From contig JAFUNB010000005.1 in the NCBI GenBank assembly GCA_017482345.1, positions 1 to 36,802 of the forward strand: DNA of 36,802 bases. The letters run 5' to 3'. Under the pieces are notes generated by a model. It worked only from the letters and a program-made list of their open reading frames with translations. It had not been told where the DNA came from and searched no databases. This DNA comes from Oscillibacter sp. Lineage in GTDB: Bacteria > Bacillota > Clostridia > Oscillospirales > Oscillospiraceae. Made by a program: the position numbers and the translations under genes. Positions 6,488 through 20,618 of this stretch are shown here, in pieces (position 1 is the first letter of the stretch; each line of letters starts with the position of its first letter).

Positions 6488-6940
6488 ATGGAGAAACCCA
6501 ATCAATCCAACGCCTGCAGTGCGGACATGGGCATTCTGCCCGGCGTCTGCGCTCCCCTGGCGTTTCCCTATGTTCCCGTGCAGGAGAATAACCCTGTCCG
6601 GTTCAGCCGGGCCGAGGCGCTGCAGACCGGCACCCTGTTCCCCGGTCTGGATCTGCCCTTCAAGCGGGCCATGCAGGCCAGAAACAAGCTGCCCAACACC
6701 GCCTTAGTTGAACTGATGGCGCTGGACTTTGCCATCGACGAGCTGGGTCTGTATCTGGTGACCCACAAGGACGACCAGGAGGTCCTGCAGCTGTATTGGA
6801 CGTATCTGAAGCTGGCCCAGGAGGGCCGGGAAAAATACCAGAAGCTGTACGGCCCTCTGCAGATGACGGTGCCCACCCCCGAGGACGGCTTCGCCTGGCT
6901 GAAAGACCCCTGGCCCTGGGATGAAGGAGGGAACGACTGA
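6488..6940 (+). CDS. CotJA-CotJB fusion, spore coat protein
   Basis: A 150-residue protein that joins two spore-coat polypeptides usually encoded separately. Residues about 15-60 (FPYVPVQ, ALQTGTLFPGLDLPF) match CotJA; residues about 75-150 (ALVELMALDFAIDELGLYL, VTHKDDQEVLQLYWTYL, YGPL, LKDPWPWDEG) match CotJB. No stop or restart separates them. The CotJ proteins form a coat complex with CotJC. AAAGGAGG stands upstream of the ATG at 6488 with a long (12-base) spacing. The stop overlaps the cotJC start (TGATG at 6938-6942), so translation is coupled. The operon should be mother-cell expressed by family knowledge; no sporulation promoter was convincingly identified. Confidence 0.9.
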   Translation: MEKPNQSNACSADMGILPGVCAPLAFPYVPVQENNPVRFSRAEALQTGTLFPGLDLPFKRAMQARNKLPNTALVELMALDFAIDELGLYLVTHKDDQEVLQLYWTYLKLAQEGREKYQKLYGPLQMTVPTPEDGFAWLKDPWPWDEGGND

Positions 6941-7449
6941 TGTTTGTATATGAGAAAAAGCTGCAGTATCCGGTGAAGATCAAAACGCCGAACCCCAAGC
7001 TGGCGGCGGTCATCATCAGCCAGTACGGCGGCCCGGACGGCGAGCTGGGCGCCTCCCTGCGCTATCTGAGCCAGCGCTATTCCATGCCCTATCCCGAGCT
7101 GAAAGCGCTGCTGACCGACATTGGCACCGAGGAGCTGGGCCATCTGGAGATGGTGGGCACCATCGTCCATCAGTTGACCCGCAACCTGACGGAGGACCAG
7201 ATCCGCTCCGGCGGCTTCGATACCTACTTCGTGGATCACACCACCGGCGTCTATCCCCAGTTCGCTTCCGGCGCGCCCTGGACCTCCGCCACCATGCAGG
7301 TGAAGGGCGATCTGATCGCCGACCTGACCGAAGACCTCGCAGCAGATGGTGCGCTGCGGTTGGCGCGGAAAAAACCCCGGAGACGTTCCTCCGGGGGCAG
7401 TTTGCATATTCGGGATCAACTCATTCCGCCGTCGCCAGCGCGGCGCTGA
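6940..7449 (+). CDS. cotJC: cotJC 5' part, interrupted by the intervening element (manganese-catalase-like coat protein)
   Basis: Residues 1-135 are the N-terminal two-thirds of CotJC, a manganese-catalase-family spore coat protein. Metal ligands Glu35 (GPDGELGASL) and the EELGH group (Glu65, His68) are present. After IADLTEDLAA the family sequence stops at the 10-bp repeat TCGCAGCAGA (7337-7346), and the frame reads about 33 unrelated basic residues of element DNA before a stop at 7449. The missing part, with the remaining ligands, is found at 20429-20618. Joining 6940-7346 to 20429-20618 gives 597 bp, in frame, 198 residues, a normal CotJC length. AAGGAGG precedes the ATG. As it stands this allele should be inactive. 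Confidence 0.95.
   Translation: MFVYEKKLQYPVKIKTPNPKLAAVIISQYGGPDGELGASLRYLSQRYSMPYPELKALLTDIGTEELGHLEMVGTIVHQLTRNLTEDQIRSGGFDTYFVDHTTGVYPQFASGAPWTSATMQVKGDLIADLTEDLAADGALRLARKKPRRRSSGGSLHIRDQLIPPSPARR
7337..7371. other. Left attachment site: core repeat and element-side arm
   Basis: The core TCGCAGCAGA (7337-7346) is followed by the element-side half site 7347-7371, ending in GGCGCGGAAA (7362-7371). This arm is the exact reverse complement of TTTCCGCGCC at 20402-20411 at the other end. The centre between the arms falls on the GA at 7345-7346, the candidate crossover dinucleotide. Confidence 0.85.
7369..7396 (-). terminator. Terminator of the SLH gene at the element edge
   Basis: Read on the minus strand, CCCCGGAG / CTCCGGGG (7389-7396 with 7375-7382) forms an 8-bp stem followed by six T (7374-7369). 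It ends transcription from the SLH gene and borders, in part overlaps, the attachment arm, so element transcripts should not run into cotJ. Confidence 0.85.
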
Positions 7450-7933
7450 CCAGACCGGCCAGTTCACCGCGGGCCACGGTTCCGTTGGGGCATAGAGCGC
7501 CGTCCGAATTTCCGGCCAGGACGCCCTTCATGGTCATCCAGCACAGGGGCTCATAAGCCCATTCACGCACCTGTGCCACATCGGTATACCGCAGGGGGAA
7601 CATCCACATGCCGACAAAACCGCCGCCCTGACGCTGTACATAGCGGTACAGCACCGCCGCCAGCTGCTGGCGGGTGATGGGGTCTGCCGGGCCGAAGGTC
7701 TTTCCATCGTAGCCCTGCATGTATCCCTCCGCGGCGCACCAGCGCACCGCCTCCGTATAGAACGCGTCCTGGGGCACATCTCCAAAGGCCATGGCATAAT
7801 TGACCACCACCGGGCAGCCTGCCGCCTCCCAGAGAGCCGCGGCGGCTTCCGCGCGGGTAGCGGGGCTGTCAGACGCTGTGGCAAAGGCCGTTCCGGTCAA
7901 ACACAACACACTCAGCACTAGGGCGGCCATCAT
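7421..7933 (-). CDS. Secreted SLH-domain protein, element cargo
   Basis: A 170-residue protein with a signal-peptide core (MMAALVLSVLCLTGTAFA) followed by SLH-like repeats: ATRAEAAAALWEAAG, FGDVPQDAFYTEAVRWCAAEGYMQGYDGKTF with ITRQQLAAVLYRY, then YTDVAQVREWAYEPLCWM and a last TVARGELAGLVSAAL. It would bind secondary cell-wall polymer; it has no separate catalytic domain. A strong GGGGAGGGGAG site lies too far (about 20 bases) before the ATG at 7933, but is well placed for an in-frame ATA at 7948, which would add the basic stretch KRTR to the signal peptide. The start may therefore be a mutated or non-standard ATA. It is the first cargo gene inside the left boundary. Confidence 0.8.
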   Translation of the reverse strand: MMAALVLSVLCLTGTAFATASDSPATRAEAAAALWEAAGCPVVVNYAMAFGDVPQDAFYTEAVRWCAAEGYMQGYDGKTFGPADPITRQQLAAVLYRYVQRQGGGFVGMWMFPLRYTDVAQVREWAYEPLCWMTMKGVLAGNSDGALCPNGTVARGELAGLVSAALATAE

Positions 7934-7974
7934 GCGTGTTCTCTTTATGCTCTCCCCTCCCCTCGTTTTGTATC

Positions 7975-8003
7975 AGCATACCAGATTTTTTCCCGGTTTG
8001 CAA
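7975..8003 (-). promoter_or_regulatory. Promoter of the cargo SLH gene
   Basis: Minus strand TTGCAA (7998-8003), 17-base spacer, TATGCT (7975-7980) with an upstream TGG extended -10 element. Confidence 0.6.
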
Positions 8004-8005
8004 AG

Positions 8006-8037
8006 AGAGCGCCGCTTTCTTCCGAAAACGGCGCTCT
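8006..8037 (-). terminator. Probable terminator after the amidohydrolase gene
   Basis: Stem AGAGCGCCG / CGGCGCTCT (8006-8014 with 8029-8037), 9 bp, just after the stop at 8044 on the minus strand. The T-rich tail is weak (TCTCTTTG), so termination may be partial. Confidence 0.6.
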
Positions 8038-8043
8038 TGCGTG

Positions 8044-8889
8044 TTATGAAATTCCAAGCAGTTTTTGGGCGTTTTCCCCCAGAATGGCGGTGCGTTCCGT
8101 CGCCGTCAGAGGTGCGGTGCGCAGCCATGCGAGACTCTCCTGCTGGCCGCTCCAGGGGCTGTCTGTGCCGAACAGCACCCGATGGACGCCGTAGGCACGG
8201 ACCATGGCGACAAACTGCTCGCCCGTCAGCAGCTGCAGCTCTTCGCTCGAGTAGCCGCTGTCGGGGATCGGCTCCATGATGCCGATGGAAAAGGAGGTGT
8301 CCACAAACACATCCGTGTCCGCCAGCTGTTCCAGCGCCTCGTCCCACTGCTTCCAGCCGCCCATGTGGGCCGCCACGATTTTCACGGGGCCTACCTGCCG
8401 GATGGCACTGCGGAGCTTTTCCGGCGAGCATTGAGTTTCATCCGGATAGCCGATGTCGATGCCGGTGTGGGTCACCACGATGAGTCCCAGCTCCCCTGCC
8501 CGCTCCAGGATCCGGAGGTAGCGGATGTCATCCTGCTCCGCCTTCTGGTACACGGGGTGGATCTTGACGCCCTTCAATCCCAGCTGCACCATGCGGTCCA
8601 GCTCCGCGCTCCAGTCCGGAAAGTCCGGATGGATGCCGCCGAAGGAGATCAGGCCCTCTCCCTTGCTGTTCAGCTCTGCCGCGGCGTTGTTGATGCCGGC
8701 GACCTGCGCGGCCTTTGTGGCCACCGGAAGGAGTACGGAGTGATCCACCCCGGCGCGCTCCATAGAGGCCCGCAGTGCGGCTGCAGTGCCGTCTGTGAAG
8801 GGTTTTGTGCGGGAGACGCGGCTCAGCGCCGCAACGGTCTTCGCCGCGAAGGCGTCCGGAAAGGTGTGGGTATGGAAGTCTATGATCAT
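8044..8889 (-). CDS. Amidohydrolase family 2 (ACMSD-like) metal hydrolase
   Basis: A 281-residue TIM-barrel amidohydrolase. The metal-binding set is complete: DFHTHTFP (His-x-His) at the N-terminus, GVKIHP in the middle, VTHTG and AAHMGG histidines, and the catalytic Asp in LFGTDSPW near the C-terminus. Members hydrolyse or decarboxylate small ring or carboxylate substrates; the true substrate is unknown. It follows the symporter gene by 20 bases, with AAAGGAT before its ATG, so the two form an operon, suggesting that it acts on the imported compound or on a product of the aromatic pathway encoded upstream in the element. Confidence 0.85.
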   Translation of the reverse strand: MIIDFHTHTFPDAFAAKTVAALSRVSRTKPFTDGTAAALRASMERAGVDHSVLLPVATKAAQVAGINNAAAELNSKGEGLISFGGIHPDFPDWSAELDRMVQLGLKGVKIHPVYQKAEQDDIRYLRILERAGELGLIVVTHTGIDIGYPDETQCSPEKLRSAIRQVGPVKIVAAHMGGWKQWDEALEQLADTDVFVDTSFSIGIMEPIPDSGYSSEELQLLTGEQFVAMVRAYGVHRVLFGTDSPWSGQQESLAWLRTAPLTATERTAILGENAQKLLGIS

Positions 8890-8909
8890 GGACTCAGATC
8901 CTTTGAAGG

Positions 8910-10457
8910 TTATTCGTGATGGTCACCCAGAGCGTCGCGCTGGGCCACCAGGACCTTCTTATCATAGCAGGAGAAGGCGTCGTCCACAAGGGCCTTGTCC
9001 GGCTTGGCGGTGAACAGGGACACCACGGGAACGATGATCAGACCGGCGATCATGCAGAAGGCGCCGGCGTTGATGGGAGACTGCAGCAGCACGGGGAAGC
9101 TGGACTTCACCACCACGTTTGCCAGCATGAAGATGGTGGAGAACAGGAAGCTGCACCAGCAGGCGGCCTTGGTGGTCTTCTTCCAGTACAGACCGTACAT
9201 GAACGGAGCCAGGAAAGCGCCGGCCAGAGCGCCCCAGGAGACGCCCATCAGCTGTGCGATGAAGGTGACGCTGGACTTGTACTGGATGATGGCCAGCACC
9301 ACGGAGATGCCGATGAACACCACGATGAGGATCTTCATCCACCAGACCTGCTTCTTCTCGTCCATATCCTTAATGACATGGCCCTTCAGGAAGTCCAGGG
9401 TCAGCGTGGAGCTGGAGGCCAGCACCAGAGAGGACAGCGTAGACATGGAGGCGGACAGCACCAGGATCACCACGATGCCGATCAGCAGATCGGACAGGCC
9501 GGAGAGCATGGTGGGCACCACGGAGTCATAGCCGTTTGCAGCGATGTCGATCTGGTCGGAGAACAGGCGGCCGAAGCCACCGAGGAAGTAGCAGCCACCG
9601 GCCACGATAGCCGCGAAAATAGTGGAAATGATCATGCCCTTGTTGATGGCGGACTCGCTCTTGATGGCGTAGAACTTCTGCACCATCTGGGGCAGGCCCC
9701 AGGTGCCAAGGCTGGTCAGAACCACCACACCCAGCAGGTTGATGGGATCGGGACCGAAGAAAGAGGCGAACACGCCGGGGGCCTCGGAGACAGCGGGATC
9801 GCTGACCTGTGCCAGACCCTCCAGAGCCGCCATAAAGCCGCCCTTGCTGGAGAGCACCGCGCCGATGACGGCGATGATGCCCACGATCATGATGATGCCC
9901 TGAATGAAGTCGTTGATGGCGGTGGCCATGTAGCCGCCGGCGATGACGTAAACGCCGGTGAGGATGGCCATGACGATGACGCAGATGGAATAGTCGATAT
10001 CAAAGGCCATGCCGAACAGGCGGCTGAGTCCGTTGTAGAGAGATGCGGTGTACGGGATCAGGAAGATGAAGATGATGGCGGAGGCCAGCAGCTTCAAAGA
10101 CTCGCTGCCGAAGCGCTTGCCGAAAAACTCCGGCATGGTGGCGCTGTCCAGATGCTGGGTCATGATGCGGGTGCGGCGGCCCAGGACTGCCCATGCCATC
10201 AGAGAGCCCAGCAGCGCGTTGCCGATGCCCGCCCAGGTAGCGGCAATGCCGTACTTCCAGCCGAACTGACCGGCATAGCCTACGAACACCACGGCGGAGA
10301 AATAAGACGTGCCGTAAGCGAAGGCCGTCAGCCAGGGGCCGACATTTCGTCCGCCCAGAACGAAACCGTTCACGTCCGTGGCATGATTGCGGCAATAGAT
10401 GCCCACACCGATCATGATACCGAAGAATACAACCAGCAGTGCTACCTTGATGAACAT
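8910..10457 (-). CDS. Sodium:solute symporter (SSS family)
   Basis: A 515-residue membrane protein with about 13 predicted transmembrane segments, starting with VALLVVFFGIMIGVGIY. Family signatures include the first-core sequence GFVLGGRNVGPWLTAFAYG, GAFLAPFMYGLYWKKTTKAA and the segment around ITGVYVIAGGYMATAINDFIQG-like helices typical of PutP/PanF-type carriers. It should import a solute together with sodium. The specificity cannot be read, but its place in a catabolic element with a shared operator sequence suggests an amino acid or carboxylate used by the pathway. AGGAGATGA precedes the ATG, and a good promoter with a palindrome lies upstream (10484-10546). Confidence 0.92.
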   Translation of the reverse strand: MFIKVALLVVFFGIMIGVGIYCRNHATDVNGFVLGGRNVGPWLTAFAYGTSYFSAVVFVGYAGQFGWKYGIAATWAGIGNALLGSLMAWAVLGRRTRIMTQHLDSATMPEFFGKRFGSESLKLLASAIIFIFLIPYTASLYNGLSRLFGMAFDIDYSICVIVMAILTGVYVIAGGYMATAINDFIQGIIMIVGIIAVIGAVLSSKGGFMAALEGLAQVSDPAVSEAPGVFASFFGPDPINLLGVVVLTSLGTWGLPQMVQKFYAIKSESAINKGMIISTIFAAIVAGGCYFLGGFGRLFSDQIDIAANGYDSVVPTMLSGLSDLLIGIVVILVLSASMSTLSSLVLASSSTLTLDFLKGHVIKDMDEKKQVWWMKILIVVFIGISVVLAIIQYKSSVTFIAQLMGVSWGALAGAFLAPFMYGLYWKKTTKAACWCSFLFSTIFMLANVVVKSSFPVLLQSPINAGAFCMIAGLIIVPVVSLFTAKPDKALVDDAFSCYDKKVLVAQRDALGDHHE

Positions 10458-10483
10458 GAGATCATCTCCTAAAACGCTTTTTC

Positions 10484-10493
10484 ACTTTAAAGT
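10484..10493. promoter_or_regulatory. Candidate operator ACTTTAAAGT upstream of the symporter gene
   Basis: Perfect 10-bp palindrome; with the preceding C the same 11 bases (CACTTTAAAGT) recur at 16081-16091 in the iorA promoter. It lies downstream of the symporter -10 box, where binding would block elongation or initiation. Related elements CTTTTAAG and CTTAAAAG lie nearby (10499-10534). Confidence 0.55.
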
Positions 10494-10517
10494 TTAATAC
10501 TTTTAAGCATTGAAGAC

Positions 10518-10546
10518 AGTCTAATCCTTAAAAGCGTTAAAGTCAA
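10518..10546 (-). promoter_or_regulatory. Promoter of the symporter-amidohydrolase operon
   Basis: Minus strand TTGACT (10541-10546), 17-base spacer, TAGACT (10518-10523), about 60 bases before the start codon. Confidence 0.65.
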
Positions 10547-10565
10547 TAGGATATGCCATTATTTT

Positions 10566-10609
10566 TCATAAAAATACAAGGCGCCCTCCCCTGTCGGGAC
10601 GGCGCCTTG
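10566..10609 (-). terminator. Terminator of the aminotransferase transcript
   Basis: Stem CAAGGCGCC / GGCGCCTTG (10577-10585 with 10601-10609), extended by an inner TCCC/GGGA pair; read on the minus strand it is followed by TATTTTTATG. It separates the aminotransferase gene from the symporter promoter. Confidence 0.88.
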
Positions 10610-10625
10610 CGATTGATGGAATAAA

Positions 10626-11807
10626 TCAGCGATAGGACTCCGCCAGTGCGCGGAATTTGGGCAGAGAGCGCTGGATCATCTCCGGCTGGACACAGTAGGA
10701 GATGCGGAAGTGGCCGGGAGCACCGAAGCCGGCGCCAGGCACCAGCAGCAGGTCAAATTCCTTGGCCCGCTCACTGAAGGCCTTGTCGTCCGGCTCTAAG
10801 CTGCGGGGGAACAGATAGAACGCGCCGCCGGGCTGCACCACATGGTAGCCCATAGAGCGCAGCTCCTCCACCAGAAGCTTGCCGTTGCTCTCGTACACGC
10901 TGATGTCCGAGGTCATATCGCAGCAGAGACTGGTCACCTGCTGGAACAGGCTGGGGGCGTTCACATAGCCGAGGCTCCGGCCCGCACCAGCCACGGCCGC
11001 ATAAACATTCCGGCTGTCCGTCACCCGCTTGGGCACCAGCACGTAGCCAAGGCGCTCACCAGGCATGGACAGGGACTTGGAGAAGGAATAGCAGACGATG
11101 GTGTCCTTGTAGATCTGGGGGATCCAGGGCACCTCAAAGCCGGCGAACACGATCTCGCGGTACGGCTCATCGGAGATCAGGTAGATGGGATGGCCGTAGG
11201 CGGCGCTCTTCTCCTCCAGAATGGAGGCCAGCTTCTCCAGCGTCTGCCGGGAATAGACCACGCCGGAGGGGTTGTTGGGGCTGTTGACGATGATGCCCTT
11301 GGTGTGCTCGTTGATGAGGGCCTCGAAGGCCTCAAAATCGATCTGGAAGCCCTCGATCTCCGGCGGGACCACCTTCAGCGCGGCGCCCGCACCCTCCACG
11401 AACACCTTGTACTCCGGGAAATAGGGTGCGAAGGTGATGAACTCGTCGCCGGGGCAGCTGAGACCGTTCAGCACGCAGCACAGCGCGGCGGCAGCGCCTA
11501 CCGTGATGTAAAAATCATCGGGGCCGCAGTCCTCGCCAAAGCGGCGGTTCAGGGAGTCCGCAAACCGCTGCCGGGCGGTCAGGTCGCCCTGGGCGCTGGT
11601 GTAGCAGTGGATGGCGTCAGGATTCTCCTGCAGGATGCGGATGATGGCCTCGTTGACCTCCTTGGGGGCGGGAACGCTGGGATTGCCCAGAGAGAAGTCG
11701 AACACATTCTCCGCGCCCACGATGGCTTTGCGCTGATTGCCGTACTCAAACAATTCGCGAATGACGGACCGGGCGGTGCCCAGTCCCAGCATACGTTCAG
11801 AAACCAT
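10626..11807 (-). CDS. Pyridoxal-phosphate aminotransferase, class I
   Basis: A 393-residue fold-type I aminotransferase. Visible landmarks are SLGNPSVPAP near the N-terminus, the NSPNNPSGVVYS segment (cofactor ring contact), LISDEPYREIVF (Asp for the pyridine nitrogen, Tyr), the Schiff-base lysine in CYSFSKSLSMPGERLGY and the substrate-binding Arg in GHFRISYC. It would convert an amino acid to its 2-oxo acid. Next to indolepyruvate oxidoreductase genes the likely substrates are aromatic amino acids, giving aryl pyruvates; this is inference. A strong AGGAGGT precedes the ATG. A hairpin separates it from the upstream ACT-domain gene, so its expression may be partly uncoupled from the ior operon. 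Confidence 0.93.
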   Translation of the reverse strand: MVSERMLGLGTARSVIRELFEYGNQRKAIVGAENVFDFSLGNPSVPAPKEVNEAIIRILQENPDAIHCYTSAQGDLTARQRFADSLNRRFGEDCGPDDFYITVGAAAALCCVLNGLSCPGDEFITFAPYFPEYKVFVEGAGAALKVVPPEIEGFQIDFEAFEALINEHTKGIIVNSPNNPSGVVYSRQTLEKLASILEEKSAAYGHPIYLISDEPYREIVFAGFEVPWIPQIYKDTIVCYSFSKSLSMPGERLGYVLVPKRVTDSRNVYAAVAGAGRSLGYVNAPSLFQQVTSLCCDMTSDISVYESNGKLLVEELRSMGYHVVQPGGAFYLFPRSLEPDDKAFSERAKEFDLLLVPGAGFGAPGHFRISYCVQPEMIQRSLPKFRALAESYR

Positions 11808-11845
11808 AGAAAGGGACCTCCTCTTTTCGGAAAAATTGCTCAGGA

Positions 11846-11876
11846 AACAAAGCCGCCGTGCCGGAGCACGGCGGCT
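11846..11876 (-). terminator. Terminator or attenuating hairpin between ACT gene and aminotransferase gene
   Basis: Perfect 11-bp stem AGCCGCCGTGC / GCACGGCGGCT (11851-11861 with 11866-11876), loop four bases; on the minus strand it is followed by TTGTTTCC, a short interrupted T tract. Likely partial termination inside the cluster. Confidence 0.7.
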
Positions 11877-11888
11877 GGTGTTTGCTCG

Positions 11889-12323
11889 TTACAGCTGGGA
11901 GATATGCTCCTGATCCACGACCTTGATGCCCTTGGCACGCAGGGCAGCTGCGGCGGCCTTGCGGTCCTGCACCCGGAAGATCATATAGGCGTGCTCCGCG
12001 GAGGGGCCGCCCAAGAAGGCGTACATATACTCCACGTTGGCGCCGGCGTCGTTCAGCACCTGCAGCACCTGATGCAGTCCGCCGGGCTCGTCGGGGATGC
12101 ACACGCCCAGAACGGGGGTGATGTTGTAGATAAAGCCGGCTTCCTTCAGCGCGTCGGAGGCGGCGTACACATCATCCACGATGACGCGGGCAATGCCGAA
12201 ATCGCTGGCCTCTGCCAGAGACAGGGCGCGCATGTCGATCTTGCTGGCGGCCAGCAGGTCGGTCATACCCATCAGGGCGCCGGGCTTATTTTCCAGAAAT
12301 ACAGAAATCTGCTTTACGCTCAT
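11889..12323 (-). CDS. Tandem ACT-domain protein
   Basis: A 144-residue protein made of two ACT domains (about 3-70 with VFLENKPGALMGMTDLLAAS, and about 72-140 with VCIPDEPGGLHQVLQVLNDAG). ACT domains bind amino acids, and stand-alone tandem copies commonly accompany indolepyruvate oxidoreductase and phenylacetate-CoA ligase genes. It may sense the amino acid or modulate one of the neighbouring enzymes; no catalytic domain is present. It lies 14 bases after the phenylacetate-CoA ligase stop, with AAAGGAGGT upstream of the ATG, so it is in the same operon. Confidence 0.92.
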   Translation of the reverse strand: MSVKQISVFLENKPGALMGMTDLLAASKIDMRALSLAEASDFGIARVIVDDVYAASDALKEAGFIYNITPVLGVCIPDEPGGLHQVLQVLNDAGANVEYMYAFLGGPSAEHAYMIFRVQDRKAAAAALRAKGIKVVDQEHISQL

Positions 12324-12337
12324 GTCTGTTACCTCCT

Positions 12338-13648
12338 TTAAATCTTGCGCTTGTCAATGACGCGGACAGCCTTGCCCTCGCTGCGGGCGATGGTCTTGGG
12401 CGCCACCAGAGTGACCTTGGGAGAAATGCCCAGCATGGAGCGCATACCGTCCACCAGCTCCTTCTGGCGCTTGGCGATCTCACCCAGGTTATCGGTGAAC
12501 ATCTCGGGCGTCATCTCCACGTGGACGTCCAGGGTATCGGTGTGGTTGACACGGTCCACGATGATCTGATAGTTGGCGGGATAGCCGTAGTTCAGCAGGA
12601 CGGTCTCGATCTGGGACGGGAACACGTTGACGCCGCGGATGATGAGCATATCGTCGCTGCGGCCCTTGGGCTTCATCATCTTCACATGCGTACGGCCGCA
12701 GGGGCACTTCTCTCGGCTCAGGCGGCAGATATCACGGGTGCGGTAGCGCATCATGGGGAAGGCTTCCTTGGTGATGGCAGTGAACACCAGCTCGCCCTGG
12801 GCGCCCTCAGGCAGGACCTCGCCGGTATCGGGATCGATGATCTCGGCGATGAAGTGGTCCTCGTTGATGTGCATGCCGGTCTGGGCGGAGCACTCGAAGG
12901 AGACGCCGGGGCCGGACAGCTCCGTCAGGCCATAGATGTCGTATGCCTTGATGCCCAGGGTGTTCTGGATATCCTGGCGCATCTCCTCAGACCATGCCTC
13001 TGCGCCGAAGATACCGGCCTTCAGGGGGATCTGGTCGGGGGTCAGGCCCATTTCCTTCATGGTCTCGCCGATGTAAGCGGCGTAAGAGGGCGTGCAGCAC
13101 AGAATGGTGGCCTGCAGGTCCTGAATGAACATGATCTGGCGCTCCGTGTTGCCGGAGGAGGTGGGAATGGTCAGGCAGCCGACCTTGTGGGAGCCGCCGT
13201 TGAGGCCGGGGCCGCCGGTGAACAGGCCGTAGCCGTAGGACACCTGGCACACGTCCTCGTCGGTGCCGCCGGCAGCCATGATAGCGCGGGCGCAGCAGTC
13301 TTCCCACAGGTCGATGTCGTGCTGGGTATAGAAGGCGACCACGCGCTTGCCGGTGGTGCCGGAGGTGGACTGGATACGAACGCACTCCTTCAGAGGCTTG
13401 CCCATCAGGCCATAGGGATAGGCGTCGCGCAGATCGCTCTTGGTCAGGAAGGGCAGCTTGTGCAGATCGTCGATGGACTTGATGTCATCGGGAGTAACAC
13501 CCTTTTCTTCCATCTTCTTGCGATAGTAGGCCACATTGTCCCAAACGTGCTTCACCTGTTTGACCAGGCGCTCGTTCTGCAGGGCGATCATTTCTTCCCG
13601 GGGGGCACATTCGATTTCAGGCTGATAGTAGCGTTCCATTGAAATCAT
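12338..13648 (-). CDS. paaK: Phenylacetate-CoA ligase
   Basis: A 436-residue adenylate-forming enzyme of the PaaK family. The P-loop-like STSGTTGKR (about 93-101), the YGLTELSGPG motif, YRTRDICRL, and the C-terminal GRSDDMLIIRGVNVFPSQIE segment are characteristic. It joins arylacetates to coenzyme A through an acyl-AMP; in fermenting anaerobes it may also run in the ATP-forming direction on arylacetyl-CoA made by IorAB. The start could be the ATG at 13648 or the third codon later ATG at 13639; AGAGG lies only 2 bases before the first and 11 before the second. It stands between iorB and the ACT gene in one operon. Confidence 0.94.
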   Translation of the reverse strand: MISMERYYQPEIECAPREEMIALQNERLVKQVKHVWDNVAYYRKKMEEKGVTPDDIKSIDDLHKLPFLTKSDLRDAYPYGLMGKPLKECVRIQSTSGTTGKRVVAFYTQHDIDLWEDCCARAIMAAGGTDEDVCQVSYGYGLFTGGPGLNGGSHKVGCLTIPTSSGNTERQIMFIQDLQATILCCTPSYAAYIGETMKEMGLTPDQIPLKAGIFGAEAWSEEMRQDIQNTLGIKAYDIYGLTELSGPGVSFECSAQTGMHINEDHFIAEIIDPDTGEVLPEGAQGELVFTAITKEAFPMMRYRTRDICRLSREKCPCGRTHVKMMKPKGRSDDMLIIRGVNVFPSQIETVLLNYGYPANYQIIVDRVNHTDTLDVHVEMTPEMFTDNLGEIAKRQKELVDGMRSMLGISPKVTLVAPKTIARSEGKAVRVIDKRKI

Positions 13649-13678
13649 TACCTCTTTTCTTTCTGTTCAGTGTATGTA

Positions 13679-14251: not shown

Positions 14252-14254
14252 GGC

Positions 14255-15991
14255 TCAGACCTCCTTGCTCGTAAATGCGCCAAAGCCGCACAGCTGCTCA
14301 CACACGCCGCAGCCCACGCACTGGGTGGCGTCCACGCAGGCCTTGCCGTTCTTCATGGAGATGGCCGGGCAGCCGATCTTCATGCAGGCCTTGCAGCTGC
14401 GGCACTTGTCGGGATCCACCGCCAGAGGCGCCTTGTGCTTCACCGTCTTCAGCAGCGCGCAGGGACGGCGGGAGATGATGACGGAGGGCTCGTTTGCCGC
14501 CAGTTCTTCCTTGACGGCAACATCACAGGCCTTCAGATCATAGGGATCCACCACGCGCACACGGTTGAAGCCCATGGCGCGGCACAGGGATTCCAGATCG
14601 ATCTTGCCGGCGGGCTCGCCCCGCAGGTTCAGACCGGTGGTGGGATTCTGCTGGTGGCCGGTCATGCCGGTGATGGAGTTATCCACGATGATGACCGTGG
14701 AGTTGGACTGGTTGTAGGCGATGTTGGCAAGGCCGGTCATGCCGGAGTGCATGAAGGTGGAGTCTCCGATGACGGCAACGGTCCTGCCTTCGCTCTCGGC
14801 GCCGCGGGCCTTGTTGAAGCCGTGCAGCGCGCTGACAGAGCCGCCCATGCACAGGGTCATCTCCATGGCGCTCAGCGGCGCCACAGCGCCCAGGGTATAG
14901 CAGCCGATATCGCCCAGCACGGTGCACTTATTCTTGCTGAGGGTATAGAACAGACCGCGGTGGGGGCAGCCGGCGCACATAACGGGAGGACGGGGCGGAA
15001 TGGCCTCATCCAGCACGCGGCCGTCATGGACCTCGCCGCCCAGGGCTTCAGCCACCAGATTCTGGGAGAACTCGCCGATCATGGGCAGAACATCCTTGCC
15101 GATGACCTCAAGCCCCAGAGCCTTGCAGTGGTTCTCGATGATGGGATCCAGCTCTTCCACCACGGCCAGCTTGTCCACCTTGGCGGCGAAGTCGCGGATC
15201 AGCTGCACAGGCAGCGGATTGGCCATGCCCAGCTTCAGCACGGACACGCTGTCACCGAACACTTCCTTCACATACTGATAAGAAGTGGAGGACGTGATGA
15301 TGCCCATTCCGGTGCCACCCATCTCCACACGGTTGACGGGAGCGGTCTCCGCCCACTCCGTCAGCTTGCGGGTGCGCTCCTCCACGATGGGGTGGCGGCG
15401 CTTGGCGTTGCCGGGCATCATGACGTACTTGGCGATGTTCTTCTCATAGGGCTTCATGTCGGGCACCACACGCTCCGCCGTCTCCACGACGGACTGGGAG
15501 TGAGCCACACGGGTGCACATCTTCAGCAGCACGGGGGTGTCATATTCCTCGCTCAGCTCGTAGGCCAGCTTGGCGAAGGCCAGGGACTCGGCGGAGTCGG
15601 AGGGCTCCAGCATGGGCACCTTGGCGGCGATGGCGTGGTGGCGGGAATCCTGCTCGTTCTGAGAGGAATGCATGCCTGCGTCGTCGGCCACGCCGATGAC
15701 CAGACCGCCGTTGACGCCGGTGTAGCTCATGGTATACAGCGGATCGGCCGCCACATTGAGGCCCACATGCTTCATGGCGCAGAAGGCACGCCGGCCGGCC
15801 AGGCACGCACCGAAGGCCACCTCCATGGCCACCTTCTCATTGGGGGCCCACTCGCAGTACATCTCACTGTACTTGCCGGCCTCCTCGGTGATCTCCGTAC
15901 TGGGAGTTCCGGGGTAACTGGAAATAATGGAACAGCCCGCCTCATACAGGCCGCGGGCAACAGCCGCATTGCCCAGCATCAGTTGTTTCAT
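14255..15991 (-). CDS. iorA: Indolepyruvate:ferredoxin oxidoreductase, alpha subunit
   Basis: A 578-residue thiamine-diphosphate enzyme subunit. Order of domains: pyrimidine-binding domain from the start (MLGNAAVARGLYEAG, SSYPGTPSTEI), middle domain, thiamine-diphosphate domain (RPPVMCAGCPHRGLFY, LGDIGCYTLG, VAVIGDSTFMHSG and VDNSITGMTGHQQNP), and two C-terminal 4Fe-4S ferredoxin clusters (DPDKCRSCKACMKIGCP and DATQCVGCGVCEQLCGFG). It catalyses ferredoxin-linked oxidative decarboxylation of aryl pyruvates. It is the first gene of the ior operon, with its promoter and the ACTTTAAAGT palindrome about 80 to 110 bases upstream. Confidence 0.97.
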   Translation of the reverse strand: MKQLMLGNAAVARGLYEAGCSIISSYPGTPSTEITEEAGKYSEMYCEWAPNEKVAMEVAFGACLAGRRAFCAMKHVGLNVAADPLYTMSYTGVNGGLVIGVADDAGMHSSQNEQDSRHHAIAAKVPMLEPSDSAESLAFAKLAYELSEEYDTPVLLKMCTRVAHSQSVVETAERVVPDMKPYEKNIAKYVMMPGNAKRRHPIVEERTRKLTEWAETAPVNRVEMGGTGMGIITSSTSYQYVKEVFGDSVSVLKLGMANPLPVQLIRDFAAKVDKLAVVEELDPIIENHCKALGLEVIGKDVLPMIGEFSQNLVAEALGGEVHDGRVLDEAIPPRPPVMCAGCPHRGLFYTLSKNKCTVLGDIGCYTLGAVAPLSAMEMTLCMGGSVSALHGFNKARGAESEGRTVAVIGDSTFMHSGMTGLANIAYNQSNSTVIIVDNSITGMTGHQQNPTTGLNLRGEPAGKIDLESLCRAMGFNRVRVVDPYDLKACDVAVKEELAANEPSVIISRRPCALLKTVKHKAPLAVDPDKCRSCKACMKIGCPAISMKNGKACVDATQCVGCGVCEQLCGFGAFTSKEV

Positions 15992-16073
15992 ATCGGTTCC
16001 CTGCTTTCGTGATTGGTATTGGACTCCCGCGAATCGATCAGTGTCTTTCCAGCGAGAATTTTTGTTTCTAATA

Positions 16074-16102
16074 ATGTTAGCACTTTAAAGTACGGTTGTA
16101 AA
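16074..16102 (-). promoter_or_regulatory. Promoter of the iorA operon with ACTTTAAAGT in the spacer
   Basis: Minus strand TTTACA (16097-16102), 17-base spacer, TAACAT (16074-16079). The palindrome ACTTTAAAGT (16082-16091) fills the spacer, a position where a repressor would exclude RNA polymerase. Confidence 0.6.
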
Positions 16103-16214
16103 TAAAAAAATACAGCCTTATACATAAAAATTCCTTTCGGGATTTTAACAGTATCCACAAAGCCTTTCACCACGGGGTTTTCGCGGATCATGGTGAAATT
16201 TCCCCGTTCCGCCC

Positions 16215-16252
16215 TTGACACCTGTATTCAAATCCTGTATCCTCAACTTTAA
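16215..16252 (+). promoter_or_regulatory. Promoter of the acyl-CoA ligase gene with an operator half site
   Basis: TTGACA (16215-16220), 17-base spacer, TATCCT (16238-16243), then ACTTTAA (16246-16252), the same half site as in the two palindromes, close to the expected transcription start. The rest of the 296-base divergent region (16012-16307) shows no other clear signal. Confidence 0.6.
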
Positions 16253-16307
16253 TGATTAAAACAATAAAAGCGCGGATATTTCCCGCTTCAAGAAAGGAAC
16301 GTGTGGT

Positions 16308-17942
16308 ATGCCTATCACCGATCTGCTGGAACGTAACAGTAAGCTCTACGGAGACGAGGTCGCCCTTGTGGAGATCAACCCCGAGGTGCAGGAGACCCAG
16401 CGCGTCACCTGGAAGGAATACGCCCTGATCCAGCCCACCTCCACCGCTCCCTACCGCCGGGAGATCACCTGGTCTGTCTTTGACGAGAAGGCGAACCGCG
16501 TGGCGAACCTGCTTCTCAGCCGCGGCATCCAGCGGGGCCAGAAGGTGGCCATCCTGCTGATGAACTGCCTGGAGTGGCTGCCCATCTACTTCGGCATCCT
16601 GAAAACCGGCGCTGTGGCCGTGCCTCTGAACTTCCGCTACACGGCGGATGAGATTGACTACTGCGTGAAGCTGGCGGATGTGGACATCCTGTTCTTCGGT
16701 CCCGAGTTCGTGGGCCGTGTGGAATCCATCGCCGACGAGCTGGACAAGGACACCCTGCTGTACTATGTGGGCAATTCCTGCCCCTCCTTCGCCGAGGACT
16801 ACCACTGGCTGGTCAGCAACTTCTCCAGCAGTGCTCCCAAGATCCTGCTGGACGACGAGGACGAGGCCGCCATCTACTTCTCCTCCGGCACCACCGGTTT
16901 CCCCAAGGCCATTCTGCATAAGCACCGCGCCCTGACCCAGTCCGCCCGTATGGAGGCCCTCCACCACGAGACCACCCACGAGGACGTGTTCCTGTGCATC
17001 CCTCCCCTGTACCACACCGGCGCCAAGATGCACTGGTTCGGCTCCCTGTTCACCGGCAGCCGCTCTGTTCTGCTGAAGGGCAACTCCCCCAAGGCCGTGT
17101 TTGACGCCGTGACCCAGGAGCGCTGCTCCATCGTGTGGCTGCTGGTGCCCTGGGCCCAGGATATTCTGGCCGCTCTGGACCGGGGCGAGCTGGATGCCAA
17201 GGACGAGAATCTCGCCCAGTGGCGGCTCATGCACATCGGCGCCCAGCCGGTGCCTCCCAGCCTCATCAAGCGCTGGATGGAATACTTCCCCCATCATAAG
17301 TACGACACCAACTACGGCCTGTCCGAATCCACCGGCCCGGGCTGCGTCCATCTGGGCATGGAGAACATCCACAAGGTGGGCGCCATCGGCGTTCCCGGCT
17401 ACGGCTGGAAGGTGAAGATCGTGGACGAACACGGCCAGACCGTGCCCCAGGGCGAGGTGGGTGAGCTGTGCGTGAAGGGCCCCGGTGTCATGGTGTGCTA
17501 CTACCACGATGAAAAGGCCACCAACGAGGTGCTGAAGGACGACTGGCTCCACACCGGCGATATGGCCCAGCAGGATGAGGACGGCTTCATCTTCCTGGTT
17601 GACCGCAAGAAGGACGTCATCATCTCCGGCGGCGAGAACCTCTACCCCGTCCAGATCGAGGCCTTCCTGGCCGCTCATCCCAAGATCCACGACGTGGCCG
17701 TCATCGGTCTTCCTGATAAACGTCTGGGCGAGATCGCCGCAGCCATCATCCAGGTAAAAGACGGCTGCGAGTGCACCGAGGCGGAGATCGAAGAATTCTG
17801 CGGCGATCTGCCCCGCTACAAGCGTCCCAGAAAGCTCATTTTCGCCCCCGTCCCCCGCAACGCCACCGGCAAGATCGAAAAGCCCAAGCTGCGCCAGCAG
17901 TACTGCGCCGAGCGTCTGGTGGAAGCCCAGAACAAGGCATAA
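16308..17942 (+). CDS. Acyl-CoA ligase (class I adenylate-forming)
   Basis: A 544-residue AMP-forming acyl-CoA synthetase. Motifs: the phosphate-binding YFSSGTTGFPKA, the YGLSESTG segment, TGDMAQQDEDGFIFLVDRKKDVIISGG (A8 hinge region), and the C-terminal lysine in NATGKIEKPKL. The substrate may be an aryl-propionate, aryl-acetate or fatty acid; sequence alone does not tell. AAAGGA lies upstream of the ATG. It is transcribed divergently from iorA and shares an operator-like half site with it, so it probably belongs to the same pathway as a second CoA-activating or ATP-yielding step. Confidence 0.92.
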   Translation: MPITDLLERNSKLYGDEVALVEINPEVQETQRVTWKEYALIQPTSTAPYRREITWSVFDEKANRVANLLLSRGIQRGQKVAILLMNCLEWLPIYFGILKTGAVAVPLNFRYTADEIDYCVKLADVDILFFGPEFVGRVESIADELDKDTLLYYVGNSCPSFAEDYHWLVSNFSSSAPKILLDDEDEAAIYFSSGTTGFPKAILHKHRALTQSARMEALHHETTHEDVFLCIPPLYHTGAKMHWFGSLFTGSRSVLLKGNSPKAVFDAVTQERCSIVWLLVPWAQDILAALDRGELDAKDENLAQWRLMHIGAQPVPPSLIKRWMEYFPHHKYDTNYGLSESTGPGCVHLGMENIHKVGAIGVPGYGWKVKIVDEHGQTVPQGEVGELCVKGPGVMVCYYHDEKATNEVLKDDWLHTGDMAQQDEDGFIFLVDRKKDVIISGGENLYPVQIEAFLAAHPKIHDVAVIGLPDKRLGEIAAAIIQVKDGCECTEAEIEEFCGDLPRYKRPRKLIFAPVPRNATGKIEKPKLRQQYCAERLVEAQNKA

Positions 17943-17950
17943 TGATGCAA

Positions 17951-17983
17951 ACGGGAGAGCCAAAACCGGCTCTCCCGTTTTTT
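17951..17983 (+). terminator. Terminator of the acyl-CoA ligase gene
   Basis: Perfect 11-bp stem ACGGGAGAGCC / GGCTCTCCCGT (17951-17961 with 17968-17978), followed by six T. Confidence 0.93.
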
Positions 17984-18053
17984 CCTGCGTTGCAATCTCC
18001 CCTGCGTTTCTGTAAAATGAAACCACTGAACAACATTGACGGAGGAGACCGCC

Positions 18054-18983
18054 ATGAACGTTTTTTTGTGTGAGAGCATCCACCCCGCGGCACTGGAGCT
18101 GCTGAAAAGCCGGGCCGAAGTGGTGTCCGACTGGGCGGAGCTTGGCCGCGTACATGCCATCATCAACCGCAACCTGAAGCTGCCCCGCAGCGTATTGGAG
18201 CAGGCGCCGGAGCTGAAGGTCATCGCCGTCCACGGCACCGGCAGCGACGGCATCGACATGGAATACTGCGCCCAGCACGGCATCACCGTGCTGTACGTTC
18301 CCTATGAAAACGCCGACTCCGTGGCGGAGCTGATCGTGGCTCTGAGTCTGACGCTGCTGCGAAAGCTGCATCTGGCAGACCGGCTGGTAACATCCGGCGC
18401 CCCCATCGCCAACGCCCCGCCCCAGCTGTTCGGCCGGGAGCTGGCCGGCAAGACGCTGGGTCTTGTGGGCGCCGGCGACATCGCCCTCCGGGCCGCCCGC
18501 ATCATGCAGGCGGGGTTCCGTGTGAATGTGATCGGCTACTCCCCTTCTCTCACGCCGGAGCGTGCGGAGGAGTTGGGCATCGCCTGCTGCGCCACGCTGG
18601 ACGACGTGCTGCGTCAGGCGGATATCGTGAATCTGGGCGTCCATCTGCTGCCTACCACGGCCAATCTCATCAGTGACCGGGAATTTAGCCTCATGAAGCC
18701 GAACGCCATCCTCATCAATACCTCCCGGGGCGGCGTGCTGGACGAGGCCGCTCTGTATCGTGCGATTACCAATGGAACAATCGCCGGCGCTGCCTGCGAT
18801 GTGTTCGTGTCTGAGCCGCCGAGAAAGGGCGAAAACCCGCTGGTGGGTCTGGACAACGTGATCTGCACGCCCCATCTGGGCGCCAACACCGACGAGGCGC
18901 TGCGCCGGGTGGGCGTGACCATGGTGGAGGAGATCTTCACCGTGCTGGACGGCGGCGAGGCCCGCTACACCTACCACATCTGA
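18054..18983 (+). CDS. D-isomer-specific 2-hydroxyacid dehydrogenase
   Basis: A 309-residue NAD-dependent dehydrogenase. The Rossmann motif LGLVGAGDIALRAARI (fingerprint GxGxxA rather than GxGxxG), the catalytic Arg in LINTSRGGVLDEAAL, Glu in CDVFVSEPP and His in CTPHLGANT make the active set complete. It probably reduces a 2-oxo acid to the D-2-hydroxy acid; within this cargo that suggests aryl pyruvate to aryl lactate, a reductive branch that recycles NADH. The start at 18054 has GGAGGAG six bases upstream; an upstream ATG at 18036 would overlap that site. It is flanked by terminators on both sides and so has its own transcript. Confidence 0.92.
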   Translation: MNVFLCESIHPAALELLKSRAEVVSDWAELGRVHAIINRNLKLPRSVLEQAPELKVIAVHGTGSDGIDMEYCAQHGITVLYVPYENADSVAELIVALSLTLLRKLHLADRLVTSGAPIANAPPQLFGRELAGKTLGLVGAGDIALRAARIMQAGFRVNVIGYSPSLTPERAEELGIACCATLDDVLRQADIVNLGVHLLPTTANLISDREFSLMKPNAILINTSRGGVLDEAALYRAITNGTIAGAACDVFVSEPPRKGENPLVGLDNVICTPHLGANTDEALRRVGVTMVEEIFTVLDGGEARYTYHI

Positions 18984-18989
18984 ATACAT

Positions 18990-19039
18990 ATCACGCTCCC
19001 GAGCCGTATAGTCTGTACGGAAAGGAGCGTGATTTTTTT
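18990..19039 (+). terminator. Terminator after the dehydrogenase gene, overlapping a ribosome binding site
   Basis: Stem ATCACGCTCC / GGAGCGTGAT (18990-18999 with 19024-19033), with an inner CCGTA/TACGG pair, then seven T. The right arm contains GGAG, which is also the likely ribosome binding site of the next small frame. Confidence 0.9.
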
Positions 19040-19136
19040 GCAGAAACTCATCTGCACCCATGTGTTTTTCAGCGGAGAACCGGACAGTGAGCGGCTGCGG
19101 CAGCTGTGGCAGTCCTTGCTGGAGCGAGGTACATAA
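19038..19136 (+). CDS. Small protein translationally coupled to the recombinase (tentative)
   Basis: A 32-residue frame from TTG at 19038 (MQKLICTHVFFSGEP...) ending in TAA at 19134-19136, whose last A is the first base of the recombinase ATG (TAATG). Such overlap normally couples translation. Its GGAG site (19024-19027) lies in the terminator stem just upstream, so folding could limit its translation and hence that of the recombinase. The role is unknown; a leader peptide or a recombination directionality factor are two possibilities. Confidence 0.45.
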   Translation: MQKLICTHVFFSGEPDSERLRQLWQSLLERGT

Positions 19137-20401
19137 TGCCCATCGCCGCCATCTACTGCCGATTGTCCGAGGAGGACCGGAACAAGGCCACGCCCGATGA
19201 CGACAGCGCCAGCATCCGCAACCAGAAAGCCATGCTGACCGCCTACTGCGCCGAAAATCGCTGGCAAGTGTATGACATTTACAGCGATGATGATTACACA
19301 GGTTCCGACCGAAACCGTCCGGAGTTCCAGCGGCTCTTGGCAGACGCCCGCAAAAATCGGTTCGACATCGTCCTCTGCAAGACCCAGTCCCGCTTCACCC
19401 GTGAGATTGAGCTGGTGGAACGGTATATCCACGGCCTGTTTCCCCGCCTGGGCATCCGCTTCGTCAGCATTGTGGACAACGCCGATACCGCCGCTCCCGG
19501 CAACAAAAAGGCCCGCCAGATCAATGCGCTGATCAACGAGTGGTATCTGGAGGATCTTTCGGACAACATCCGCACCGTGCTAACCAGCCGCCGCCAAAGC
19601 GGCTTCCACATCGGCTCCTTCGCCCTGTACGGCTATCGGAAGGACCCTGAGCGGCACGGGCATCTCCTGATAGACGAGGAGGCCGCCGCCGTTGTGCGGG
19701 AAGTATTTTCCCTTTACAATACCGGTCACAGTAAGACTGCCATCGCCCGTATACTCAACGAGAAGGGCGTCCCCAACCCCACTGCCTACAAGCAGCAACA
19801 GGGACTCCGGTACCGCCAGCCAATGGGCGATGGCCGTGGTCTTTGGACATACTCTGCCATCTCCTCCCTGCTGCGCAACGAGATGTACACCGGCACGCTG
19901 GTGCAGGGAAAATACGGCAGCGTGTCCTACAAGACCAAGGAAAACCGCCCCCGGCCCCAGTCGGAGTGGCTGCGGGTGCCGGATACCCACGAGGCCATTA
20001 TTTCGCCGGAGCTGTGGGCCAGTGTTCAGAAGCGGCTGGCAGAGAGCGCCCGACCTATGGCCACGGGAGAGGTCGGCCCCTTCACCGGCAAGGTGCGCTG
20101 CGCCGGCTGCGGCCGACGCCTGCGCACCTCCAAAAGCCACGGCCGGCGGTACTTCCACTGCCCCACTCACCGTCTGGACAAGACCCTCTGCCCCGGCGCT
20201 TTCCTCTCCGCCGACGCATTGGCGCAGGCCGTTACAGATCAGCTGCGGGAACTGACGGCGCAGCTTCCCTCTCCGCCCCTTCCGCCGCAGGAAGTAACGG
20301 CAGACCGGAGGACGGTGGACACGTTCATCGACCGCATTGAGGTCTCCCGCCCCACCGAAAACAGCCGCGCGGTTCCGGTAAAGATCTTCTGGCGGTTTTG
20401 A
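19136..20401 (+). CDS. Large serine recombinase of the intervening element
   Basis: A 421-residue site-specific recombinase. The N-terminal resolvase domain (about 1-150) has the nucleophile Ser11 in IYCRLSEEDR and the arginine-rich LCKTQSRFTREIELVERY segment; the recombinase domain (about 160-280) is followed by a zinc ribbon (CAGCGRRLRTSKSHGRRYFHC, from about residue 322) and a short C-terminal part. This is the type of SpoIVCA, which excises skin from sigK. It is shorter than many large serine recombinases (450-550). GAGGT lies 5 bases before the ATG at 19136. The TGA (20399-20401) directly abuts the attachment arm at 20402. It should catalyse excision between 7337-7346 and 20419-20428; whether it is expressed only during sporulation cannot be seen. 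Confidence 0.95.
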   Translation: MPIAAIYCRLSEEDRNKATPDDDSASIRNQKAMLTAYCAENRWQVYDIYSDDDYTGSDRNRPEFQRLLADARKNRFDIVLCKTQSRFTREIELVERYIHGLFPRLGIRFVSIVDNADTAAPGNKKARQINALINEWYLEDLSDNIRTVLTSRRQSGFHIGSFALYGYRKDPERHGHLLIDEEAAAVVREVFSLYNTGHSKTAIARILNEKGVPNPTAYKQQQGLRYRQPMGDGRGLWTYSAISSLLRNEMYTGTLVQGKYGSVSYKTKENRPRPQSEWLRVPDTHEAIISPELWASVQKRLAESARPMATGEVGPFTGKVRCAGCGRRLRTSKSHGRRYFHCPTHRLDKTLCPGAFLSADALAQAVTDQLRELTAQLPSPPLPPQEVTADRRTVDTFIDRIEVSRPTENSRAVPVKIFWRF

Positions 20402-20428
20402 TTTCCGCGCCTGCGGGATCGCAGCAGA
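20402..20428. other. Right attachment site: element-side arm and core repeat
   Basis: TTTCCGCGCC (20402-20411) is the inverted partner of 7362-7371; the core TCGCAGCAGA is 20419-20428. In the circle, 20402-20426 and 7347-7371 form two half sites of 25 bp matching at 19 positions around GA. Confidence 0.85.
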
Positions 20429-20618
20429 GCAAAAGGCCCGCGCCACCTATGACAACATCCTGCGGCTCAGCGACGATCCCGACGTCAACGACGTCATCAA
20501 GTTCCTGCGGGCCCGCGAGGTTGTGCACTTCCAGCGCTTCGGCGAGGGTCTGGAGCTGGCCCGGGAGCGCATGAACCAGAAGAACGTCTACTATATGAAC
20601 CCCTCCTTCGACAAATAA
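20429..20618 (+). CDS. cotJC: cotJC 3' part, separated from its start by the element
   Basis: This stretch has no start of its own. Read in the frame that continues from the left part it encodes residues 137-198 of CotJC, after Glu136 whose codon is formed by GA of the core and the G at 20429. It begins EQKARATYDNILRLSDD (Glu136 included) and includes REVVHFQRFGEGLE with His169. Glu136 and His169 correspond to the second pair of manganese ligands of the manganese-catalase family. The stop TAA is at 20616-20618, followed by a strong terminator that must belong to the cotJ operon. It is a normal, undamaged sequence, which argues for selection and against simple decay. Confidence 0.95.

Follow-up and report, generated by a model that had tools for sequence, protein, structure and literature searches.

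Can a sporulation gene whose two parts lie 13 kb apart still serve the cell that carries it? This question is raised by cotJC in a stretch of 36,802 nucleotides from Oscillibacter sp. (GenBank assembly GCA_017482345.1, contig JAFUNB010000005.1), hereafter called the window. The window spans an entire contig in a 42-contig, 72%-complete metagenome-assembled genome (MAG) of a gut bacterium. A sequence-only reading had proposed that cotJC is split here at a 10-bp direct repeat by a 13.08-kb skin-like element, which ends with a large serine recombinase gene and whose excision would rebuild the host gene. Here, we followed up this proposal and compared the locus with its relatives. We conclude that the window probably holds a sporulation gene-intervening element, inserted at codon 136 of cotJC (site 136) and excised by its recombinase, most likely in the mother cell. 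The split cotJC can probably work only after this element has been removed during spore formation; without knowledge of such elements, split cotJC genes would look broken.

The split gene and its counterparts in relatives

The repeat and the two parts of cotJC lie, to the base, where the sequence-only reading had placed them, and the element measures 13,082 bp (Table 1). The repeat, TCGCAGCAGA, is identical at the two junctions over exactly 10 bp and extends on neither side. Joined in silico, segments 6940-7346 and 20429-20618 give the expected 597-bp frame of 198 amino acids and a stop codon, with no internal stops. The joined protein matches the Mn_catalase family over residues 1-184 with an E value of 6.7e-56 (the query was one residue off); for the open reading frame (ORF) of the 5' part alone, the E value is 4.4e-39. 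Intact CotJC orthologues of 198 amino acids span the join, the best match having 90% identity over all 198 residues; together with the family match, they confirm that the CotJC sequence is unbroken there. Those close relatives with an intact gene that were identified by name are MAGs with labels such as Oscillospiraceae and Oscillibacter; their existence, which had been suggested as a check, disposes of the view that the two parts never formed one gene. The element is located inside the coding sequence of a sporulation gene, is bounded by a direct repeat whose precise join restores the frame in silico, and has a site-specific recombinase of its own. As far as structure goes, the skin-like reading is borne out, with strong support from the comparative data that follow. 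The source genome also has spoIVA above cut-off. As a separate observation, positions 6455-6940 of the window are a single continuous frame that holds both the CotJA and the CotJB domains.

We sorted and tallied by hand the state of cotJC in 99 genomes, namely the source genome of the window, a further 60 from its genus and 38 from other families of the order. Of these, 42 have the gene whole (22 of the genus, 20 from other families). Another 25 have it as complementary pieces (19 from the genus, the window's own genome included, and 6 from other families). The other 32 belong to neither class, cotJC being absent, one-sided, paralogous or at contig ends. At least two interruptions are found in 11 of the 25 split genomes, one of which (G072) is counted on a one-sided boundary. 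As read from these sequences, many relatives have cotJC interrupted at one, two or three of five fixed positions, with crossovers in codons 31, 62, 65, 136 and 172; they are referred to below as site 30, two sites near codon 65, site 136 and site 176. In G094 (10 contigs, 100% complete), four pieces of cotJC lie in order on one contig (785,663-785,472; 773,858-773,631; 768,027-767,896; 760,367-760,290), and when joined they make 597 bp with no internal stops. The neighbouring amidase gene (Pfam Amidase_3), presumably cwlD, served as a control; it was found in 87 of the 99 genomes, and no complementary pieces at fixed sites were seen among its listed matches.

Each cotJC site has its own recombinase group, as judged from a recombinase tree of 30 rows. 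Sites 30, 136 and 176 each form one side of a starred branch of this tree, and the recombinases of the two sites near codon 65 fall into two groups. On the tree, the four site labels need 3 changes, the minimum possible, which none of 200 shuffles reached.

The attP of the presumed circle was composed by joining the right end of the element to its left end. In the window it reads TTTCCGCGCC-15-GA-15-GGCGCGGAAA, an inverted repeat centred on the inferred crossover dinucleotide GA, and its symmetry of 19 out of 27 pairs was reached by none of 400 null joins and by 3 of 20,000 random joins within the element. The best symmetry centre of site-136 elements is cotJC base 405 (0-based) in 10 of 11, one of the 10 being weak; in the eleventh (G098), which is weak too, centre 405 ties with another. 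At the other sites, the best centres are base 183 in 6 of 7 and 192 in 4 of 4 (both near codon 65), 90 in 4 of 4 (site 30) and 513 in 2 of 3 (site 176). The symmetry lies above the 5% null in 21 of 29 elements; it does not in G021, G094 and G098 (site 136), G053 and G021 (near codon 65), G082 and G003 (site 30) and G018 (site 176). Junction pairs share a run of at least 5 bp on the homologous diagonal in 20 of 32 cases and less in the other 12, among which G021 near codon 65 falls short owing to an anchor one codon off.

Two arrangements among the relatives stand apart. In G047 (L108 C11, L109), the 5' and 3' pieces of cotJC share a strand and stand in reversed order, the 3' piece being some 12.7 kb upstream, and a different contig holds the middle piece; simple excision would not restore the gene from this order, which points to rearrangement or misassembly. 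G049 has a second cotJC copy (G049:C9, L119; entered as G049b in the junction check), a degenerate one that covers about codons 64-176, has an in-frame stop and is apparently decaying.

The recombinase and its partner

The gene at the end of the element encodes, as had been claimed, the resolvase, recombinase and zinc-ribbon domains of a large serine recombinase (Pfam), but the coiled-coil hairpin of the C-terminal domain, which is usual in this class and is not one of those Pfam domains, is missing. About 100 residues that are present in 7 of 9 aligned site-136 recombinases are lacking in the window enzyme and in that of G094, and no other of the 31 order-wide matches has a short ORF. In a structure model of the G032 enzyme, the missing part forms two long helices, 377-423 and 429-478, which have no counterpart in the model of the window enzyme. 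The mean predicted local distance difference test (pLDDT) score is low overall in both models (62.8 for G032 and 57.6 for the window), so only these two helices are trusted, their blocks being mostly near 90. On the alignment and these models, we class the window recombinase as a variant without the coiled coil.

Several searches strongly support the conclusion that recombinases of the window type belong with cotJC. Eleven of the 99 genomes have a recombinase at least 58% identical to that of the window, and every one of them has a site-136 split; the next matches at an E value of 1e-100 or better are 46-50% identical. Order-wide, 30 of 394 genomes, from 23 genera, have a window-type recombinase at 1e-135 or better. 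Four of the 30 (G000, G088, G094, G098) were known beforehand, and a second match in G279 is outside the count. The flanking sequence retrieved, about 1.5 kb at most, holds a cotJC piece with its boundary at codon 132-136 in 29 of the 30 loci; three of these alignments ran past the boundary, which was re-read with other queries. In the thirtieth (G384), the piece is about 4.7 kb from the recombinase. Of 14 recombinases of the family in IMG/VR, 8 are at least 61% identical to the window's, and the sequence retrieved around 6 of these 8 includes a cotJC piece; around the 6 less similar ones (42-52% identity) it includes none.

A recombinase of this type can also be found away from its host gene. 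In G030, two cotJC pieces lie 2.3 kb apart around a single PAS-histidine-kinase-receiver ORF (L090), and the recombinase with its short ORF neighbours a glyoxalase-family gene on a separate 253-kb contig (L135, C66:6000-15000). No cotJC piece was found in the 9 kb taken from that contig, and the G030 element, its recombinase being elsewhere, does not carry its own.

More distant recombinases, 45-48% identical to that of the window, adjoin a PRK06851-like ORF in 8 of 10 loci (L208, L209, L211-L213, L215-L217). About the first 97-115 codons of these ORFs are missing, and their NCBIfam matches are below cut-off. From its sequence, the PRK06851-like gene looks like a second host gene split by a related recombinase.

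Immediately before the recombinase gene stands a short ORF, a member of a family of 32-50 codons with the pattern CKSxFKxG...LINQLE. It was tested in 40 of 44 loci, the upstream stretch being unusable in 4; 8 of the 40 are the seed sources, and the product of a ninth (L193) is identical to a seed. The short ORF scored above every reverse-strand control in 38 of the 40 and failed in L183 and L198. In the window it scored 10.0, against 4.7 for the top control. Read by eye in 11 site-136 loci, it is weakest in the window and in G094. Among five members searched, two have Pfam matches, far below cut-offs, and none matches PHROGs. Given its size and place, we propose this ORF as a candidate directionality factor; the known factors GirX and CD1234 have 42 (PMC5595907) and 53 amino acids (PMC10747680), respectively. 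By eye, short ORFs of other sequence families seem to precede the recombinases of sites near codon 65 and of site 176, and these are possible further directionality factors.

The leaders before the short ORF of the window-type family often contain CATA, which by consensus we take to be a sigma-E/K-type -10. It is present in 26 of 32 non-redundant leaders, compared with a mean of 5 and a maximum of 12 in 1000 shuffles that preserve base make-up only. In the window, CATA at 18987 stands upstream of the inferred -10 CGTATAGT, farther upstream than in most leaders. A CATA-type motif is found in 9 of 20 cotJ operon leaders (null mean 1.1), and the spaced motif ATA-N15-18-CATA in 16 of 31 site-136 leaders. 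These motifs lend only weak support to developmental control, for reasons given below.

Is the element excised in the mother cell?

In the process that we envisage, the recombinase, perhaps with the short protein, would pair attL and attR and cut at GA. The 13 kb would be deleted as a circle, leaving a whole cotJC behind the cotJ promoter. This would most likely take place in the mother cell during sporulation, and the forespore would keep the element and its indolepyruvate oxidoreductase (ior) cluster. Since it is the forespore genome that is inherited, the loss from the mother cell would cost the lineage nothing.

A number of results weigh against this reading. A search of the incomplete source genome gave no SigE above cut-off. 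No excised junction or circle was seen. The exact attP strings of three types, searched for as traces of an excised circle, have no match in IMG/VR, and a degenerate attP pattern run on 14 genomes returned three attL sites (G000, G030, G094) and one other place; the window attP string itself has no match in 227 loci. Of the 13 genomes with a two-sided site-136 split, G041 and G050 have no window-type recombinase, perhaps because of contig breaks. The short ORF family is not limited to cotJC, since 3 of 6 usable stretches (of 16) before other recombinases beat the top control (26.4, 7.0 and 5.5). The promoter evidence suffers from a similar comparison with 16 non-cotJC recombinases, 14 after removal of redundancy, of which 10 are from genomes (L208-L217). 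The spaced motif is present in 11 of the 14, in 4 of 21 leaders from the remaining cotJC sites and in a single one of 20 cotJ leaders; the enrichment outside cotJC weakens the promoter claim, which we do not drop. Selection on the 3' pieces is likewise open to two readings. These pieces stay open, with a median ratio of nonsynonymous to synonymous substitution rates (dN/dS) of 0.072 (22 usable of 45 pairs), and that of intact cotJC is 0.099 (224 usable of 400 sampled pairs; of 88 loci, 78 gave a frame and the 61 of standard length were used). However, recombinases move between hosts, so the low value may reflect recent insertion. Finally, the window enzyme lacks the coiled coil, whose deletion reduced LI Int to about 2% activity, with recombination still in both directions, and abolished the activity of phiC31 Int (PMC10754689). 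The window recombinase could be a weak, direction-free excision enzyme, or dead; we lean slightly to the former because the other parts are intact and G094 is a second such case.

The movement of recombinases between hosts was seen for G032 and G047, with a synonymous divergence (dS) of 0.20 for the recombinase and of 1.06-1.13 for host genes. Vertical inheritance of the G032, G047 and G033 recombinases was considered and rejected, their dS being 0.20-0.50 as against 1.04-1.32 for host genes; values so far below those of the hosts indicate that these elements moved recently. All 14 IMG/VR contigs found with CotJC match part of the protein only, some because the contig ends, and three that were sampled (L153, L159, L162) have tail or virion genes. 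On the gene content of these contigs, phages also use cotJC sites.

Mobility of this kind suggests the first alternative, that cotJC is for phages and islands only a conserved and dispensable attachment site, a safe harbour in which the function of the carrier's cotJC is irrelevant and excision serves transfer. It would account for recombinases common to diverged hosts, for cotJC pieces on viral contigs and for the diversity of the cargo. We nevertheless consider it unlikely, because the 3' pieces have kept an open, conserved frame, the site-136 class shows an excess of CATA leaders, and the four pieces of G094 still join in frame after three elements have entered one gene. The G030 recombinase, which lies apart from its element, would moreover gain nothing by transfer.

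The second alternative starts from the coiled coil, which is missing in the window and G094 alone among the 9 aligned site-136 recombinases: its loss would have disabled the enzyme, so that cotJC is a pseudogene locked in pieces here and relatives still excise. The inactivity of phiC31 Int without its coiled coil is what this predicts; the residual activity of LI Int is not. We find it doubtful, since nothing is broken in the window's recombinase frame, short ORF, attP arms or two cotJC pieces, and G094, which likewise has no coiled coil, keeps four cotJC pieces open. An assembly or binning artefact, which the origin of the window and of most relatives listed by name from MAGs and the placement of some cotJC pieces on separate contigs might suggest, is extremely improbable in view of pieces in order on single contigs (G094 and, for example, G021, G053, G013 and G098), five repeated sites with matching recombinases and an adjacent amidase gene without such a pattern.

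Mother-cell excision at site 136 is thus the reading that we prefer. A bolder extension of it can be put forward only tentatively: that cotJC of Oscillospirales, in up to four pieces, is assembled in each sporulating mother cell by several independent, site-dedicated recombinases with their short partners, one recombinase being able to act from elsewhere in the genome, and that the window enzyme, having lost the coiled coil that controls direction, is now a standing excision enzyme that rids the mother cell, itself doomed, of the only ior cluster that this genome was found to hold.

Relation to known elements

The gin element in gerE of Bacillus cereus ATCC10987 resembles that of the window in several respects, as far as the available text of its report goes (PMC5595907). 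It lacks phage genes and interrupts a small sporulation gene, with a short direct repeat, a serine recombinase (GirC) and a small directionality factor (GirX), for which the window has a candidate. It differs in its length of 28.6 kb, its three recombinases, its host gene and the single insertion described; its excision is proven, that of the window element predicted. The skin element in sigK of Clostridioides difficile has the serine recombinase CD1231 and the small directionality factor CD1234, controlled by sigma-E and SpoIIID (PMC5025042). It shares with the window a serine recombinase, and its excision rebuilds a mother-cell gene. Unlike the window element, it is described as prophage-like and its host gene is sigK, and in the same source a coiled coil is discussed as part of recombinase control. 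The term skin-like fits the logic of the split and is backed by the relatives; it does not fit the metabolic cargo of the window, in which no phage structural family was recognised, or its recombinase without a coiled coil. SP-beta in spsM, vfbin in spoVFB and yin in yabG also interrupt sporulation genes, but they are prophage-like and have other host genes (PMC10747680). The host genes named in the available text of that paper are sigK, spsM, spoVFB, gerE and its own yabG, and cotJC is not among them.

Several elements in one gene are already known from heterocyst-forming cyanobacteria, where nifD is cut by up to four (PMC4874684). There too, recombinases group largely by insertion position and excision is tied to a specialised cell type; the organisms and genes are others, and the cells are heterocysts and not mother cells. 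Among the literature matches listed, in a search that left most subscription journals outside, none has cotJC as the host of an intervening element, and cotJC, manganese catalase and spore coat were not found in the available text of a survey of large serine recombinases (PMC10083194). The nearest published case among these matches is the phi027 prophage of C. difficile, with a CotJC homologue just downstream of attR (PMC11222575, PMC12122855); as described there, phi027 is adjacent to the CotJC-like gene and, in contrast to the window element, does not split it. If our reading is true, programmed DNA removal in spore formers is not confined to the handful of host genes described so far but is widespread in gut Clostridia, where five recombinase groups use five sites of a single small gene. 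The cotJC loci offer many natural attB/attP pairs and candidate directionality factors, and the variant without the coiled coil offers a way to probe the function of that part.

Cargo and other features of the window

Table 1 Features of the split cotJC locus in the window (aa, amino acids).
Feature	Position	Strand	Remarks
cotJA and cotJB domains	6455..6940	+	one 161-aa ORF directly 5' of cotJC; Pfam CotJA 2e-11, CotJB 8.8e-22
cotJC 5' piece	6940..7346	+	codons 1-135 and two bases of codon 136; repeat at its end
Direct repeat TCGCAGCAGA, left junction (attL)	7337..7346	.	inferred crossover dinucleotide GA 7345-7346
Intervening element	7347..20428	.	13,082 bp
GGCGCGGAAA, left-end arm of attP inverted repeat	7362..7371	.	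15 bp from GA
S-layer-homology (SLH) domain ORF	7424..7933	-	Pfam SLH 4.3e-22
Amidohydrolase	8047..8889	-	Pfam Amidohydro_2 2.1e-31
Sodium:solute symporter	8913..10457	-	Pfam SSF 8.2e-57; TIGR02121 5.4e-56 (below its cut-off)
PLP aminotransferase	10629..11807	-	NF005305 2.8e-159, above cut-off
Double ACT-domain protein	11892..12323	-	Pfam ACT_8 1.3e-23
Phenylacetate-CoA-ligase-like	12341..13648	-	TIGR02155 2.6e-156, below its cut-off
Indolepyruvate oxidoreductase beta-like (iorB)	13682..14251	-	Pfam POR 5.6e-38
Indolepyruvate oxidoreductase alpha (iorA)	14258..15991	-	TIGR03336 1.7e-212, above cut-off
Acyl-CoA ligase	16308..17939	+	Pfam AMP-binding 4.2e-75
D-2-hydroxyacid dehydrogenase	18036..18980	+	Pfam 2-Hacid_dh_C 3.4e-50
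CGTATAGT, weak sigma-E-like -10, inferred	19005..19012	+	judged against the consensus
Short ORF, TTG start	19038..19136	+	32 codons; overlaps recombinase start; weak family member; candidate directionality factor
Serine recombinase	19136..20401	+	421 aa; resolvase, recombinase and zinc-ribbon domains; coiled coil absent
TTTCCGCGCC, right-end arm of attP inverted repeat	20402..20411	.	15 bp from GA
Direct repeat TCGCAGCAGA, right junction (attR)	20419..20428	.	inferred crossover GA 20427-20428
cotJC 3' piece	20429..20618	+	severed from cotJC start codon and from cotJ operon promoter

By its family matches, the cargo of the window element is metabolic. Its iorA is the sole match at an E value of 1e-150 or better in the source genome, and the element would be an example of host metabolism on DNA predicted to be lost from the mother cell. 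The third-position GC content of the cargo genes (0.75-0.86) and of the flanks (0.76-0.84) is alike. The recombinase and all 10 cargo ORFs were compared with PHROGs. Eight cargo ORFs match nothing or only families of unknown function, and the amidohydrolase matches weak families of unknown function only. The SLH ORF has weak matches to tail (1.3e-4) and endolysin (1.1e-3) families, which we attribute to shared SLH repeats. No phage structural family was recognised among the cargo in PHROGs, and the element is not classed as a prophage. G009, G018 and G003 have much of this cluster, likewise kept together, and G026 and G079 have parts of it; as the cotJC of the first three is split on separate contigs, their clusters may also lie in cotJC elements. 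Elsewhere at site 136, the element of G098 (L101) carries an N-6 DNA methylase and a large helicase-like protein, a gene content that suggests a defence island.

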